From a virus, in the IMG/VR virus record IMGVR_UViG_3300010150_000169, positions 1 through 24,319 of that record: a DNA stretch of 24,319 nt; one strand, written 5' to 3'. The position numbers were made by a program, and so were the translations under genes. The notes under the pieces were generated by a model. It saw nothing but the letters and a program-made list of their open reading frames with translations, did not search any database and was not told the origin of the DNA. This document shows, piece by piece, positions 13,373 to 20,312 of this stretch. The stretch's first letter is position 1; every line of letters starts with the position of its first letter.

Positions 13373-13857
13373 GTATATTTTCAATAATCAAAGAAGCTGT
13401 TGGAAACGAACCAAAATCATTTGGTTGGTATCGTGATAATGTAAAAGTTCTTTTTAAGATGAGTGATTTGTATGCTGATTTAGTAGAACAGGAAGAGACT
13501 TTAAATCCTATCCCTGGTCAGTTATACATGTTTGAGTATAAAGCAATATATGCAGAAAGATTAAATTTTTATGATAGATTTCCCCTTGTGTATATCACTG
13601 GCGGTGGGGATCCTTTTAGAGGTATCAACTTACATTACCTTGCATTGAGACCTAGACTCAATCTAGTATTAAATCTGGAAAATGGTGTGATTGCAGGTGT
13701 TCCTAAAAGAGCCTATCATAATTATTTGACAAGGGGTTTAGAAACTCCACTTTACCTAATAAATAGTGATGATTACAGAACTGCTGCCTTCTTACCTGTA
13801 GAAGATTTCGGTGGTACAAGTAGAACAGCAGTCTGGAACGGAGCCAAACAGTCATGA
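13369..13857 (+). CDS. T4-type late protein, unassigned
   Basis: The protein has 162 residues. The central block QLYMFEYKAIYAERLNFYDR followed by FPLVYI and FRGINLHYLALRPRL is a pattern I have seen in many myovirus structural or packaging proteins (YxxKxxxxLxYYDRFPLV...GxNLHYL). It is coupled to gp4 and gp54 by ATGA overlaps on both sides, so it is surely a late virion or assembly protein. In T4, gene 2 (DNA end protector) lies beside gene 4, so gp2 is one candidate, but I cannot show similarity. The name is left open. Confidence 0.75.
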   Translation: MSIFSIIKEAVGNEPKSFGWYRDNVKVLFKMSDLYADLVEQEETLNPIPGQLYMFEYKAIYAERLNFYDRFPLVYITGGGDPFRGINLHYLALRPRLNLVLNLENGVIAGVPKRAYHNYLTRGLETPLYLINSDDYRTAAFLPVEDFGGTSRTAVWNGAKQS

Positions 13858-14690
13858 CAGTATCTAGAATTTCAAATATCCAAACTTTGTCAAACTACAG
13901 TGAATTTAGAGCTGCAGTGACACGTCATGGTTATAGTATTAATAATCTATATGATGTCATCTTCAACTTACCTGCTAGCACTAATGTATTTAATGAACTG
14001 ATAGCACAATATTCTGGTGCTGATGGAGATCAACCAATTGGTTTACAAGAATGTCTGAATCTATTAAGACTGTATACCAATCAATGTACAATGCCTGGTG
14101 TCACTATGGCTGATAGTGAATACAGAGTAACTAATACACCACAATTAAAATATGCATATGGTGCTGTGTTTAATGAATTTAGTGTTACTTTTACCATGGA
14201 TGCTGATTCATTAATCAGAAAAGTTTTTGATAAGTGGACCAATACAATTTATCCATACTCGCGTTTTCGTGGGGACACTGGTAATACTGGTCCATTAAGA
14301 ACTTCATATAAGGAGGATTACATTGCAGATATTTCAGTGATTAAATATGAAAGATTTAAATCTTCTAAACGTAATAACATAATCGTGGGAAGTAGAATTC
14401 CTAAGAATAGAATTATTCCAGGAATTGATCCTAATGATGGTGATTTTGATTCTGGATTTGCTGATAACATTGCTGTACATGCTGTTAAGATGAAAAATGC
14501 ATTTCCAAAATCTATTGATTCTATGTCATTATCTTCTGAAGGTGGTGCATTAACACAATTTTCTGTAGCATTTGAATATGAATCACTGCAGGTTAGTACG
14601 TTAAATGAATTGCAATCATTTACATTTGATCCAGATAAAGTTACAGAGAATGTATCAGGATCTGTACTTAATTTAGTAACCTCTGTTTAA
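13854..14690 (+). CDS. 54: gp54-type tail-tube initiator
   Basis: The protein has 278 residues (T4 gp54: 320). Its pattern is that of tail-tube-like baseplate proteins: an N-terminal helix (FRAAVTRHGYSINNLYDVIF), a CTMPGVTMADSEYR segment where tube proteins have their first strand loop, then FNEFSVTFTMDADSLIRKVFDKW and a final beta block (GGALTQFSVAFEYES). gp54 sits on gp48 and starts polymerisation of gp19. Finding it two genes from gp48, but on the other strand, supports this pairing. The start is set by an ATGA overlap. Confusion with another tube-fold protein is possible. Confidence 0.72.
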   Translation: MTVSRISNIQTLSNYSEFRAAVTRHGYSINNLYDVIFNLPASTNVFNELIAQYSGADGDQPIGLQECLNLLRLYTNQCTMPGVTMADSEYRVTNTPQLKYAYGAVFNEFSVTFTMDADSLIRKVFDKWTNTIYPYSRFRGDTGNTGPLRTSYKEDYIADISVIKYERFKSSKRNNIIVGSRIPKNRIIPGIDPNDGDFDSGFADNIAVHAVKMKNAFPKSIDSMSLSSEGGALTQFSVAFEYESLQVSTLNELQSFTFDPDKVTENVSGSVLNLVTSV

Positions 14691-14725: not shown

Positions 14726-15439
14726 ATGCCTTTACCAAAGTTAAATGCACCATCTTATGAATTGGTGCTTCCGTCAACAGGAAAAAAAATTCGCTATCGT
14801 CCATTCCTAGTTAAGGAAGAAAAAATTCTTCTTATTGCTATGGAATCTGAAGATGAGAAACAGATGCAGGAGGCGGTCAGACAAATCCTAAAGAACTGTA
14901 TCTTAAGTAGAGGCATTAAAGTTGATGAACTGGCAGTATTTGATATCGAATATTTATTTTTAAATATTCGCGGTAAGTCTGTTGGTGAAGAGGTAACTCT
15001 AAACCTTATTTGTCCAGACGATGGAGAAACCACTGCTGAGATAACTATTGATATCGAAGATATCAAAGTTCAAAAACCAGATGGTCATGAAAACATTATC
15101 AAACTTAATGATGATGTTTCTATTGTAATGAAGTATCCAAGTATGGAAACTTTCGTTAAAAATAATATCACTGGTAGTTCAAGTCTTGATACTGTATTTG
15201 ATCTGTCTGCTGATTGTATCAATCAGATTGTAGAAGGTGAAGATGTTTATGAATCAAAAAGTTTTTCTAAAAAAGAACTTTTAGAATTTATGGACAGTAT
15301 GGATAGTATACAGTTTCAATTAATTCAAAAATTCTTTGAAACTATGCCTAAATTATCACATAAGGTTTCTATCACCAACCCAAAAACTAATGTAGAAAGT
15401 GAAGTTGTTATTGAAGGTTTAAATAGTTTTTTCGATTAG
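14726..15439 (+). CDS. 26: gp26-type hub assembly protein / tail chaperone
   Basis: The protein has 237 residues (T4 gp26: about 208). It matches the T4 baseplate-hub family: it starts LPKLNAPSYELVLPSTGKK, followed by YRPFLVKEEKILLIAMES, then FDIEYLFLNIRGKSVGEEV, a LICPDD zinc-knuckle remnant, and a helical end (ELLEFMDSMDSIQFQLIQKFFE). The YRPFLVKEEKILL block is diagnostic. Its last codons are AGT-TTT-TTC-GAT-TAG, which contain the slippery heptamer TTTTTTC. A -1 shift there would extend it to 297 residues. Its position directly before the tape-measure-like genes matches that of tail assembly chaperones. A late promoter precedes it. Confidence 0.85.
   Translation: MPLPKLNAPSYELVLPSTGKKIRYRPFLVKEEKILLIAMESEDEKQMQEAVRQILKNCILSRGIKVDELAVFDIEYLFLNIRGKSVGEEVTLNLICPDDGETTAEITIDIEDIKVQKPDGHENIIKLNDDVSIVMKYPSMETFVKNNITGSSSLDTVFDLSADCINQIVEGEDVYESKSFSKKELLEFMDSMDSIQFQLIQKFFETMPKLSHKVSITNPKTNVESEVVIEGLNSFFD
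15427..15433 (+). other. Probable -1 programmed frameshift site (T TTT TTC)
   Basis: The heptamer fits X-XXY-YYZ in the gp26 frame, with zero-frame codons TTT (15428-15430) and TTC (15431-15433). After a -1 slip both Phe tRNAs re-pair fully and reading goes on as TTT-CGA-TTA-GTT with no stop until 15618. The zero frame stops six bases after the heptamer. No strong downstream hairpin is evident. Confidence 0.65.
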
Positions 15440-15486
15440 TTCTAGCTCACGAATCACTTGAAAACTTTTACAAAACAAATTTTGTA

Positions 15487-15618
15487 ATGGTACAACACCA
15501 CAAGTGGGATCTAGAACAATTAGAAAACATGATACCTTGGGAACGAGAAGTTTATGTTCAGATGCTCATCGAATTTATCGAAGAGGAAAATGAACGAATT
15601 AAAAGTCAGCAAAAATAA
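15487..15618 (+). CDS. Tail-chaperone-like extension (-1 frame of gp26), or small separate protein
   Basis: From the only ATG in this frame it would be a 43-residue peptide: MVQHHKWDLEQLENMIPWE, then REVYVQMLIEFIEEENERI. The recognisable domain, however, starts before this ATG: the in-frame codons upstream read LAHESLENFYKTNFV and contain no ATG, GTG or TTG. They can be translated only by a -1 shift from gp26 at 15427-15433. No ribosome-binding site precedes the ATG. The short helical segment with a W/L-N-M-PxE pattern recalls the T part of GT-type chaperones. In cyanophage annotations this segment may appear as gp51; I am unsure of that name, because T4 gp51 is much longer. Confidence 0.65.
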   Translation: MVQHHKWDLEQLENMIPWEREVYVQMLIEFIEEENERIKSQQK

Positions 15619-15621
15619 CTA

Positions 15622-18036
15622 ATGCCAGCACCTTTAGCAGCCGCAGCAGCACCAGCCATAAAAGGATTACTCGGAGCAGGAGTTCGCGGGGCGGCTACTG
15701 GTGGGTTTAGAGCTGCAGCAGGTAACGCTGCTAAAGGAATGGCTGCAGACGCCGTAAAAGGTGGCGCCAAAGAAGGGATGAAGAACTTTGCCCGTAACAT
15801 GACGGGTAAAACATCGGATGATTATAAGGCAAGAGTAGATGGTGTAAATCCAGAGACTGGTGAATATCTAACACCTGAAGAAAGAAAAGCAAGATTTAAG
15901 GGCTTTGCAACCAGTCCAGTAAAAGAATCTTCACAGAAATTATTACCAGGTGCAGCTCAACCTCAAGAAGTACCTGCTTTAGCTCCAGCTGGAGGAGTAG
16001 GTAATGATGATCAACAAGAAAAAGTTGTAAATCATCTGGAAAAAATTCAGATGTACCTAGGAAAACTTCTGATTATTGAAGAGAATGCTTTATCTAGGTT
16101 GCAAGATAAAATTTTAGCAACCGCAAGAGAAGATGATAGAGATGCGGCGGAAGAGGAAGAAGAAAAACAGGAAAAAGGAAAACCTAAAAAGAAATCAGGA
16201 AACAATCCTATCGTTAAAGGAATAAAAAAGAAAGCAAACGGTATTTTTGCTTTTCTGATGGACTTTGCAATGAAGTTTGTTGGAATGAAAATTCTTGAGT
16301 GGATTTCAGACCCAGAGAACCAAGAAAAAATACAAAAAATAGTAGGATTTTTTCAAAGTGTACTCAGTTTCATTACCACAGTAGGTAATATTATTGGGGA
16401 TACATTTAACTTTAGTGTTGATGTAATACAAAAAGGTATTGAGGGTATTACATTCTTAGCTGAAAAAGTTCAGGAATTCTTTAGCTTTGAATGGTTAAAT
16501 ATTGATACATTATTAGAACCACTAACACCAATTGTAACTTTCTTTACCGAAACAATTCCATCAGCGATGAATGGATTCTTAGATGGTCTTGCTGGAGTAA
16601 TTACAAAGCTAGATAATATTCCAAATCAATTTGTTGGTATAGTACAAAAAATTACAAATGGTTTCTTAGAATTTATTGGTCTTCCACCTGAAGACACAAA
16701 ACCTATAAAGCAACCAAGAGATGGTGATACAGCACCAATACCAGAAGACGGTAAATCTTTAGTACCATCATCTACTCCGAGTGGTTCGGATTCGGCAGAA
16801 GAATTATCACCAGGGGAATCTAAACCACCAAAAATGAAACGTGGTGGTTATCTTTCTGGTCGCACACATGCTCAAGGCGGTCAGGTAATTGAGGCAGAGG
16901 GTGGTGAGTATGTAATGAATAGAAGAGCAGTTGCTGCAATTGGCAGGAACAAATTAGATGCAATGAATTTTGGTAATTATCCTGCTGTTGGTAGAGGAGA
17001 AAGAGAAAATCCAAGAAGCATGGCGTCAACTGGTGGAATAATTACTAGAGGTAAAGCAAGGTCTGGTGGGAGTATTATTAATATTGGAGATAAAGCAAAG
17101 TCTGGTGGAATCGTCCAAAAATTTGCCGAAGGTGGTCCAGTTCATCCTCTTCTAACTAAGATGAATGATCAGAACATTAAAAAAGTATCTGCTCCTGTAG
17201 GTCGTTGTGTTACAGGTTCTTTAGATACTATGAAGAGGAGTGGTGTTCCCGAACCTGCTGCTACTGGTCTTGATGAGGGTAACAATCCCAGAGGTGGCAT
17301 GGTTCAGATGATAAAGGATTTTGGGTGGAAGAGTATGGGTGGAACTAAAACTCCCCTTTCGAGTCCTTATGGAGACGTTTCACCAGGAATTTTTACAAAA
17401 GATCAATACCTCAAAAAAGTTGATGAGGGTAAAGTTCCATCTGGTGCATTAGTATTCCAGACAAAACATCCTAGTTGGACTGAAACCAGTTATAACTCTA
17501 GGGGTTTTGACATGGCCATTGCTCAAAAAAATGGCAAGGCATTATGGAATGGAGTACTAATCAATGATCCTTTAGTGTATGCTAATACTAAAAAAGTTGT
17601 TGTATTAACACCTGATGGAAAAGAGAATAATGGTACTGCGGGTCAATCTATGGATAGTGGTCCCGATAATGCTTCTGGGAGTACTACCACCACTGTTAAT
17701 GCTGATGGTACTACCACAACTACTACAACTACCACTACAACTCCAAAGAAAAAAACACCAGAGGTTGATCTTAGTGTATTAAAAGCAATTCTTGCTGGAC
17801 CAGAGTTATCTGGTCAACCGCCTAGTAAATCATCCAGTTCATTAAAAACTTTGCAAAGTGAAAATAACATATTGACTACACCTGGTATTCAATATGATGA
17901 ATCGAATGAAAAGATTTTTATGGCTGAAAAATCGCCATCATTTACAACAGGATTTGATGAAAACATTTTAGGTGGATTAGAATTAGGTGAAAATATTCCA
18001 CCATTTACTCAAGCAGTATTTCCATTTAATCTATAA
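15622..18036 (+). CDS. Large tape-measure-like tail protein with possible peptidase-like domain
   Basis: The protein has 804 residues. Residues 1-50 are Ala/Gly/Lys-rich; 130-165 are helical; 170-205 are highly charged (EEEEEKQEKGKPKKK); 205-350 are hydrophobic helices with EWISDPENQ (226-234). Residues 408-432 carry GGYLSGRTHAQGGQVIEAE plus GGEYVMN, a glycine pattern common in tape-measure proteins. Residues 520-660 look like an NlpC/P60- or CHAP-type fold: Cys529 (GRCVTGS), VPSGALVFQTKH (605-616) and RGFDMAIAQKNGKALWNG, where the usual catalytic His aligns with Asp630. A Thr-rich linker (688-707) is followed by a C-terminal domain. It starts three bases after the chaperone-like frame and overlaps its paralogue as TAATG. 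Confidence 0.72.
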   Translation: MPAPLAAAAAPAIKGLLGAGVRGAATGGFRAAAGNAAKGMAADAVKGGAKEGMKNFARNMTGKTSDDYKARVDGVNPETGEYLTPEERKARFKGFATSPVKESSQKLLPGAAQPQEVPALAPAGGVGNDDQQEKVVNHLEKIQMYLGKLLIIEENALSRLQDKILATAREDDRDAAEEEEEKQEKGKPKKKSGNNPIVKGIKKKANGIFAFLMDFAMKFVGMKILEWISDPENQEKIQKIVGFFQSVLSFITTVGNIIGDTFNFSVDVIQKGIEGITFLAEKVQEFFSFEWLNIDTLLEPLTPIVTFFTETIPSAMNGFLDGLAGVITKLDNIPNQFVGIVQKITNGFLEFIGLPPEDTKPIKQPRDGDTAPIPEDGKSLVPSSTPSGSDSAEELSPGESKPPKMKRGGYLSGRTHAQGGQVIEAEGGEYVMNRRAVAAIGRNKLDAMNFGNYPAVGRGERENPRSMASTGGIITRGKARSGGSIINIGDKAKSGGIVQKFAEGGPVHPLLTKMNDQNIKKVSAPVGRCVTGSLDTMKRSGVPEPAATGLDEGNNPRGGMVQMIKDFGWKSMGGTKTPLSSPYGDVSPGIFTKDQYLKKVDEGKVPSGALVFQTKHPSWTETSYNSRGFDMAIAQKNGKALWNGVLINDPLVYANTKKVVVLTPDGKENNGTAGQSMDSGPDNASGSTTTTVNADGTTTTTTTTTTTPKKKTPEVDLSVLKAILAGPELSGQPPSKSSSSLKTLQSENNILTTPGIQYDESNEKIFMAEKSPSFTTGFDENILGGLELGENIPPFTQAVFPFNL

Positions 18037-20312
18037 TGAAAAGCGCTATCACACCTTACCAAGGTAATCAAAGTAATTCTCTGACTGTTATATCAAAGCC
18101 TCAACAGTCTATGTCGATTGTTCCTGTCAAGAAAGAATCTGATGAGAACCAGTCCGTAAATAAAGCAGAAGTAACAGTAAAAGATATTAGAAAAAATGTT
18201 TTAATGTTGCTCAGAAAGAGACAACAGAGAGATAGACTAGAAGAAAAATATAGTAAATTAGAAGAAAAACTTAATCTAAAAGAATCTGCAAAAAATGAAG
18301 AATCAAAACAAGAGAAGTCTTCATTTTTATCTAAGATGGGTAGTGGAGTAAAAAATAAAGCGGAAAAAGTTGGTGGAGATTTGTTTGGTGCTATAGGAAA
18401 AATCTTAGGATTTATGGCTTTAGATTGGATATCTAAACCAGGGAATCAAGCTGTCCTAGAAGGTATTGTTGAAGGTGTTGGACATATTATTAGGTTTGTA
18501 GATTATTGGGTCACTGGATCTGTTGACAATCTACTGTCTGGTTTTGCAAGCTTTGTGGGTGGAGATACTATTCTAGAAAGAGTAGTAGGATTCTTCCAGA
18601 TGACTGCTGGATTTTTCGGTCTAAGATATTTCTTAAAACCACAAAAAATTATAACTGATTTATTAAAAATTAGAAAATTTATTATGGAGGGTGGTGTAAG
18701 AAAATTAAAAATCTTCACCAAGAAATTACAAAAATTTGGATTAAAAAAAGCACTTAAATTTGCATTCCCAAGATTATCAAAACTAATATCTGGTATTGGA
18801 AATATAGGTTCAAGAATTATCAACGGTATTAAAAAGGTAGTAGGTAAAACTGGGGCAGGAAATTTATTTAAAAAAATTGGTAATGCAATTTGGCGAGGTG
18901 CTGGTGAGAAGGGCGCTAAAGTCATCATGCCAATTTTGAAAAAACTAATGAAACCAGTAACAGGATTCCTAAAAAGAATCCCAGTTGTTGGTGGATTGAT
19001 ATCTTTTGGTGTCAATTTGTTGTTTGGTGATTCTCTTACTCAATCAGCATTTAAAGCTCTTGGTGGGTCACTTGGTTCTTGGATTGGTGGTGGAATAGGA
19101 TCACTAATTCCAATACCACCACTAGGAACTTTTGTTGGTGCATTTTTAGGTGGTGTTGTTGGTGATTGGTTGGGTAGTAAATTCTATGATATGCTGATGA
19201 AGAGACCAGCACCTGAACCATCTGAAACTGAAAAAAATGCAGCTAAAGTTAGACGAAAAGAAGCAATACTTAAAAATAAAAATAGTGATTTAACACAGGG
19301 AGAAATTGATGTCCTCTTAATGGAGGAACTGGGTATTACAAGTGAAGAATTAGAGAAAGCAAGAAAATTCAGTAAAGAAGCTAGAGGTGAAGAAGAGACC
19401 ACAACTACTACCACAACAACCACCACTACGACTGGTGATAATGATTCATCATCTGTATCTGTCAGTGGTGGATTTGATAAAAAATTTGCAGCACTGCTGG
19501 GTGATTACGAGGGACTAAAACTAGAAGCATACGCTGATGCTAACTATGGGTGGGAGATTCCTACCATTGGTATTGGTGCAACTTACTATCCATCTGGATT
19601 CCGTAAGTCTGGCAAGGTTCAGAAGGGTGACACTATTACTGAAGATGAAGCATATTGGATCAAGTCTCAACATATTATTGAGCATCGTAAGCGTCTCGTT
19701 AATGAGGTTGGTAGTGACTATAGTAAGGCACCGAATAAAGTAAAAGCAGCTCTTGAGTCTGTAGTCTTCAACTATGGATCTTTATCTGGTGCTGGTATTT
19801 TAGGTGAAGTAAAACAGTCACTGAAGAGTGGTGATTATGGTCCAGTTATTAATGCATATCGTAGTAGTTTAGCAAGTCACAACGGCGGTATAAACAGCTG
19901 GCGTCGTAATGATGAAGCAACTTTGATGGAATCTGGAAAGAGTAATCGTACTGGTATTCAGTTTGATTCTGGTGGTCAAGGTGATGGTAAACCTAATAAA
20001 TCTAACAAATTTTTAACACCAACTATCAGTGGAGGCAATAATAAATCTTACGACTCTCCAATACTAAATCGTGGTAGAGGTGGTGGTAAACCTACCATGT
20101 CACCGATTACAAAGTCACCAACAAAGAGACATAGTGTTATGTCCGAAATGAGTATGAACGCAGTACAGAATAGAAAATTTGCAAAAAATGGTAGTGGAAG
20201 TACTATCATAATTAAAACTGGTGGTGATACATATGCTCAGTATACATCTATTGCTAGTTCACCCAGTAGGCTAAATAGTAGTACACAGATGAGCCACAAG
20301 AGGGGCCTGTAA
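18036..20312 (+). CDS. Tape-measure-like tail protein with GH24 lysozyme domain
   Basis: The protein has 758 residues. The N-terminal 100 residues are charged and helical (a coiled coil near 45-85). Hydrophobic helices follow from 115 to 390, including LDWISKPGNQ (129-138), which matches EWISDPENQ in the upstream gene, and Gly-rich segments (GSWIGGGIGSLIPIPPLG). A run of 12 Thr (455-466) leads to a T4-type lysozyme domain (about 478-640): E492 in YEGLKLEAYAD, D501 and T510 in PTIGIGAT, matching the Glu-Asp-Thr triad of GH24, then KGDTITEDEA and VKAALESVVFNYGSL. It would cut peptidoglycan during DNA entry. The last 120 residues are basic and probably disordered. The start is coupled by TAATG. 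Confidence 0.8.
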   Translation: MKSAITPYQGNQSNSLTVISKPQQSMSIVPVKKESDENQSVNKAEVTVKDIRKNVLMLLRKRQQRDRLEEKYSKLEEKLNLKESAKNEESKQEKSSFLSKMGSGVKNKAEKVGGDLFGAIGKILGFMALDWISKPGNQAVLEGIVEGVGHIIRFVDYWVTGSVDNLLSGFASFVGGDTILERVVGFFQMTAGFFGLRYFLKPQKIITDLLKIRKFIMEGGVRKLKIFTKKLQKFGLKKALKFAFPRLSKLISGIGNIGSRIINGIKKVVGKTGAGNLFKKIGNAIWRGAGEKGAKVIMPILKKLMKPVTGFLKRIPVVGGLISFGVNLLFGDSLTQSAFKALGGSLGSWIGGGIGSLIPIPPLGTFVGAFLGGVVGDWLGSKFYDMLMKRPAPEPSETEKNAAKVRRKEAILKNKNSDLTQGEIDVLLMEELGITSEELEKARKFSKEARGEEETTTTTTTTTTTTGDNDSSSVSVSGGFDKKFAALLGDYEGLKLEAYADANYGWEIPTIGIGATYYPSGFRKSGKVQKGDTITEDEAYWIKSQHIIEHRKRLVNEVGSDYSKAPNKVKAALESVVFNYGSLSGAGILGEVKQSLKSGDYGPVINAYRSSLASHNGGINSWRRNDEATLMESGKSNRTGIQFDSGGQGDGKPNKSNKFLTPTISGGNNKSYDSPILNRGRGGGKPTMSPITKSPTKRHSVMSEMSMNAVQNRKFAKNGSGSTIIIKTGGDTYAQYTSIASSPSRLNSSTQMSHKRGL

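Follow-up and report, generated by a model that had tools for sequence, protein, structure and literature searches.

A conserved -1 frameshift signal at the end of gp26, a candidate tail assembly chaperone gene of a T4-like cyanophage, and its relation to the T4 gene pair 26 and 51

The window analyzed in this work is a stretch of 24,319 bases of viral DNA, positions 1-24,319 of IMG/VR record IMGVR_UViG_3300010150_000169, with a gene content of the T4-like cyanophage type. All features described in the window are on its plus strand. A tail-tube-like gene (13854-14690, clear profile match to phrog_45) occupies the position of lambda V and lies directly 5' of gp26 (14726-15439, stop codon included), which encodes a protein of 237 aa, the short (G-like) form of a putative tail assembly chaperone. 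The gp26 protein matches PF12322 (E = 1.1e-72; 244.7 bits vs. the curated cut-off of 24.5) and phrog_150 (E = 1.2e-80, profile positions 5-233 of 282). Directly 3' of gp26, in the position of lambda H, is the gene of an 804-aa tape-measure candidate (15622-18036), assigned by its position and weak matches to phrog tape-measure profiles. The next gene (18036-20312) encodes a 758-aa protein with a Phage_lysozyme domain and a glycine zipper by profile match, the second of the two large tape-measure candidates. With its lysozyme domain (PF00959, 3.8e-9) this product resembles a tape-measure or tail protein that carries a cell-wall enzyme. The sequence-only reading of this DNA had likened the locus to a G/GT arrangement ahead of tape-measure-like genes; the gene order would be that of lambda V-G/GT-H, with weak tape-measure matches downstream.

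The gp26 frame ends in AGT TTT TTC GAT TAG, with the stop codon at 15437-15439. It contains the slippery heptamer T TTT TTC at 15427-15433, whose 0-frame codons are TTT (15428-15430) and TTC (15431-15433). The heptamer had been placed six bases before the stop, which is right if the count begins at the first T of TTC; only three bases lie between the heptamer and the stop codon. The -1 frame is shut just upstream by TAG (15424-15426), so that the heptamer is its only point of entry, after which it has 63 open codons (FFRLVLAHESLENFYKTNFVMVQHHKW...KSQQK) and is closed by TAA at 15616-15618. The earliest ATG, GTG or TTG in the -1 frame of the window is the ATG at 15487, and the stretch from the heptamer to this ATG (15434-15486) would be translated only via a frameshift. 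The extension and its stop (15427-15618; FFRLVLAHES...KSQQK, 63 residues) would form the T-like segment, equivalent to the C-terminal part of gp51, of a predicted fusion of 297 aa. The presence of the heptamer in the gp26 frame, the open -1 frame to 15618, the first possible start at 15487 and the product lengths of 297 vs. 237 residues had all been read correctly from the sequence. In codon shuffles of the window gp26, any X_XXY_YYZ heptamer arose in the last six codons in 3.5% and a T or A run in 1.6%; taken singly, the window sequence is suggestive only. Another slippery heptamer in the gp26 frame, T TTA AAT (15418-15424), is found 9 nt upstream of T TTT TTC. A -1 slip at this site would meet TAG 15424-15426 at once, and no conservation of it was found among relatives.

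Conservation of the T TTT TTC heptamer among homologues had been set beforehand as a test. The homologues were picked by gp26 sequence alone, and the sample (80 loci, 90 more divergent loci and isolates; 173 distinct) was thus not selected for the heptamer. T TTT TTN was found near the gp26 stop in the same register in 170/173 distinct loci, which excludes chance; the last base was C in 126, T in 41, A in 2 and G in 1. Among the 75 distinct close loci, the codon preceding the Phe pair encodes Ser (from two codon boxes), Asn, Ala or Asp, and its third base is T in 75/75. The Phe pair of the slip site reads TTT, then TTC, in every one of the same 75 loci, while the other Phe columns are mixed. 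In the 18 codons that follow the heptamer, -1-frame stops were found in 0/168 loci; frame 0 is closed in 168/168 and frame +1 in 154/168. Over the stretch before the window's first ATG, pairwise comparisons with the window gave pN of 0.02-0.27 vs. pS of 0.32-1.08. These comparisons indicate that the -1-frame codons of 15434-15486 are under purifying selection, and their conservation, which had also been named as a check, is borne out. Three loci have no heptamer: L055 and the Vibrio phages VAP7 (a member of the Ackermannviridae) and D509. In L055 (3001-3891) a two-base deletion at the heptamer results in a single in-frame long form of 297 aa and no short form, which may be a real fusion or an assembly error. 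In the two Vibrio phages (L096:3700-3920, L097:3640-3850) gp26 ends in TAATG, where its stop codon and an ATG of the -1 frame overlap. A scan with alignment A6 for further Ackermannviridae relatives gave VAP7 itself as the sole match.

Next to the slip site, two kinds of putative stimulatory signals were detected. At 15413-15417, 9 nt ahead of the heptamer, the window has GAAGG, which is weak as a Shine-Dalgarno-like sequence; its homologues mostly have GAGGG or GGAGG at this place. GGAGG/GAGGG occurs 7-18 nt before the heptamer in 100/171 loci vs. 0.5% of control windows. The Glu codon of the conserved Glu-Gly encoded here is GAG in 87% of loci; at all other Glu columns but one, GAG makes up 11-59%. 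Downstream, a hairpin starts 5-6 nt 3' of the heptamer in a clade of 53 sequences, and 93% of its cells pair vs. 23-49% for slid control structures. Two-sided compensatory changes were counted in 37 cells, a level reached in 0/500 shuffles; the most telling pair alternates between U-A, G-C and A-U, and one of its sides is an amino-acid-changing position. RNAalifold on all 74 loci gave no common hairpin because the window clade folds differently, and on this result a single hairpin for all loci was rejected. The window's own candidate 3' stimulatory structure (15434-15540, 107 nt) has a z of -3.06 without covariation support, and its downstream 60 nt have a z of -1.50. In the window clade (20 members) the mean z is -1.12, a weaker folding tendency than that of the hairpin clade.

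The -1-frame segment matches phrog_634 ("baseplate hub assembly catalyst", gp51) with an E-value of 4.5e-29, as well as the end part of phrog_150 (positions 230-276). In T4, gp26 reaches phrog_150 position 235 only, whereas gp51 reaches position 280 and matches phrog_634. Both T4 proteins belong to PF12322, and hhalign aligns the two at E = 9.7e-14. The C-terminus of T4 gp26, GLKEFFELL, coincides with the slip point, and T4 gp51 runs on through the extension. A further 34 T4-type contigs have a long gp51 (247-254 aa) and a short gp26 (188-216 aa). By these alignments T4 gp51 is the gp26 domain plus this C-terminal segment, and from the homology and the lengths it appears that T4 encodes in two genes what the window phage would make from one. 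The frameshift genes, gp26 and gp51 formed three separate groups in an unrooted protein tree, and since the tree is unrooted the dating of the 26/51 duplication was dropped. Alignment A8 was the basis for the structure work; two joint alignments, A7 (short forms, extensions and gp51) and the smaller A9, were discarded because the short extensions were misaligned.

For the structure model we used the in-frame L055 fusion (pLDDT 89.4), in which the extension is helical. Foldseek alone gave weak hits only, none of which reached E 0.001 in the PDB. With a second PDB aligner the top matches were the HK97 tail assembly chaperone 2ob9 (Z 8.0), RBSTP2171 3fgx (Z 8.0) and YqbN 3klu (Z 7.3), followed by matches at Z 4.9 and 2.9; the chaperone match spans about residues 1-90 only, and a Z near 8 is modest. 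We take RBSTP2171 and YqbN to be chaperone-family folds. The comparison with chaperone structures called for by the sequence-only reading has the HK97 protein leading the list, and the model supports a tail-chaperone-like fold for the gp26 N-terminal domain. At the sequence level, short and extended forms with a common N-terminal domain are found. Family, gene order and fold together support gp26 as a tail assembly chaperone; this role had been suggested for the window's lineage, and the phenomenon is not confined to that lineage. In the same list, ORF19 of a Vibrio cholerae PICI-like element (5ir0) aligns with the L055 model over residues 6-250 at Z 4.9, and a relationship of this satellite protein to tail chaperones is possible on the modelled structure.

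We concluded that gp26 is very probably a G/GT-type chaperone gene in which a -1 frameshift at T TTT TTC would give a short form of 237 aa and a long form of 297 aa; slippage, its rate and the binding partners of the two forms are inferred from the sequence and from known systems. The majority of ribosomes would end at TAG 15437-15439 and release the short form. A minority would slip back one base while TTT occupies the P site and TTC the A site, aided in this phage group by the Shine-Dalgarno-like element ∼10 nt upstream and by the downstream RNA structure, and would read the -1 frame to 15615 to make the long form. U_UUU_UU runs are weaker slip sites than A_AAA_AAG in E. coli (PMC5009743). 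By analogy to lambda, the short form may coat the tape-measure protein, the C-terminal segment of the long form may recruit tail-tube subunits, and the slip frequency would set the short-to-long ratio.

The frameshift could be real and gp26 could nevertheless be a structural protein of the baseplate hub rather than a tail assembly chaperone. The database name "baseplate hub subunit" and genetic studies that put T4 gp26 in the hub (PMC3004832) speak for such a role. The same review, however, counts T4 gp26 and gp51 among the hub assembly chaperones and reports gp51 to be absent from the particle, the best fold matches are chaperones, and Vladimirov et al. (2022) is cited in two later papers for identifying T4-like chaperone genes (PMC10885494; PMC12846349); we consider a structural hub protein unlikely.

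A lower probability still was given to the -1 segment being a small gene by itself, the annotated gp51, with translation beginning at a start codon within it or coupled by termination-reinitiation. Many database records annotate it so, in 56/75 close loci the sixth codon of the -1 frame is an ATG close to the gp26 stop, and the distant relatives VAP7 and D509 have the TAATG overlap instead of the heptamer. An independent start was nevertheless rejected: the first start in the window (ATG 15487) falls inside the conserved domain, and a ribosome-binding-like site precedes the first -1-frame start in 0/75 loci, in agreement with the view that the segment is not a gene with its own ribosome-binding site. 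Reinitiation would call neither for a constant heptamer in a constant register nor for a hairpin with the near ATG inside its stem, such as the clade of 53 relatives has; moreover, the segment is fused to the gp26 domain in T4 gp51. Least probable of all is RNA polymerase slippage on the T run, by which mRNAs with an extra base would yield the fusion by standard translation: the poly-T tract and the longer T runs of some relatives would suit it, but the window and most relatives have only six T, the T run is flanked by ribosomal stimulators, and such slippage needs no codon register, the conservation of which in 170 loci makes it unlikely.

The proposed ribosomal frameshifting at gp26 can be compared with several known systems. 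Like lambda G/GT and its counterparts in other long-tailed phages, it would give a short protein and a -1-frameshifted long form, and gp26 follows a tail-tube-like gene and precedes tape-measure candidates. It differs in the heptamer, which is a G-run site in lambda, and in having a larger N-terminal protein of the PF12322 family in a contractile-tailed phage. The modelled N-terminal fold also matches that of HK97 gp14. The signals of this phage group resemble those of the E. coli dnaX cassette, which combines a 5' Shine-Dalgarno-like element, located about 10 nt from the slip site, with a 3' stem-loop, whereas here the heptamer is a U run and the frameshift would yield the longer product. T4 gp26/gp51 are of the same families (PF12322 and phrog_150), with gp26 short and gp51 long and carrying the homologous C-terminal segment; unlike the single gene here, T4 has two divergently oriented genes without a frameshift. 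In phage Adele and other Vandenendeviridae/Andersonviridae the short chaperone frame also ends in a T-rich slip motif, but the motif is GTTTTT and the phage families are different. A 2016 review described G/GT frameshifting as conserved in long-tailed phages "except T4" (PMC5009743), and that exception would become an alternative route to the same protein pair. The PRFect paper cites Vladimirov et al. (2022) on T4-like phages that have a short and a long gene (PMC10885494), and the Adele paper cites the same work on the poly-T slip sequences that chaperone genes of T4-like phages contain (PMC12846349). As cited there, chaperone frameshifting in T4-like phages has in kind already been reported, and the mechanism is of a known type. 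The Shine-Dalgarno bias and the covarying hairpin are additions so far as the literature covered shows, in which Vladimirov et al. (2022) is represented by the papers citing it. With the exact sites now given, the short-to-long ratio can be altered and measured.

A tentative scheme, to which we give somewhat less than an even chance, is that a single frameshifted chaperone gene was ancestral to those of the T4-related phages and took three courses: the heptamer was kept with Shine-Dalgarno and hairpin signals in most lineages, duplication gave genes 26 and 51 in T4 and its relatives, and a TAATG stop-start overlap replaced the heptamer in Ackermannviridae-like relatives.

For annotation, the finding implies a correction in a marine phage group that is among the commonest: the cyanophage "gp51" would be the -1-frame end of gp26 and not a truncated gene. 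A 2010 comparison noted that cyanophage gp51 is without its first 200 residues, at ∼20% of the normal length, and that gp51 is missing in Aeh1 (PMC3037559); both remarks are explained if "gp51" is the -1-frame end of gp26. The joined product is annotated in none of the 19 public record stretches examined. Three Aeromonas phages (L136, L084 and L100) carry the -1-frame extension, which is unannotated in Ah1 and CC2. L136, a 233,234-base contig that is probably Aeromonas phage Aeh1, has the heptamer followed by a -1 frame of 57 codons.
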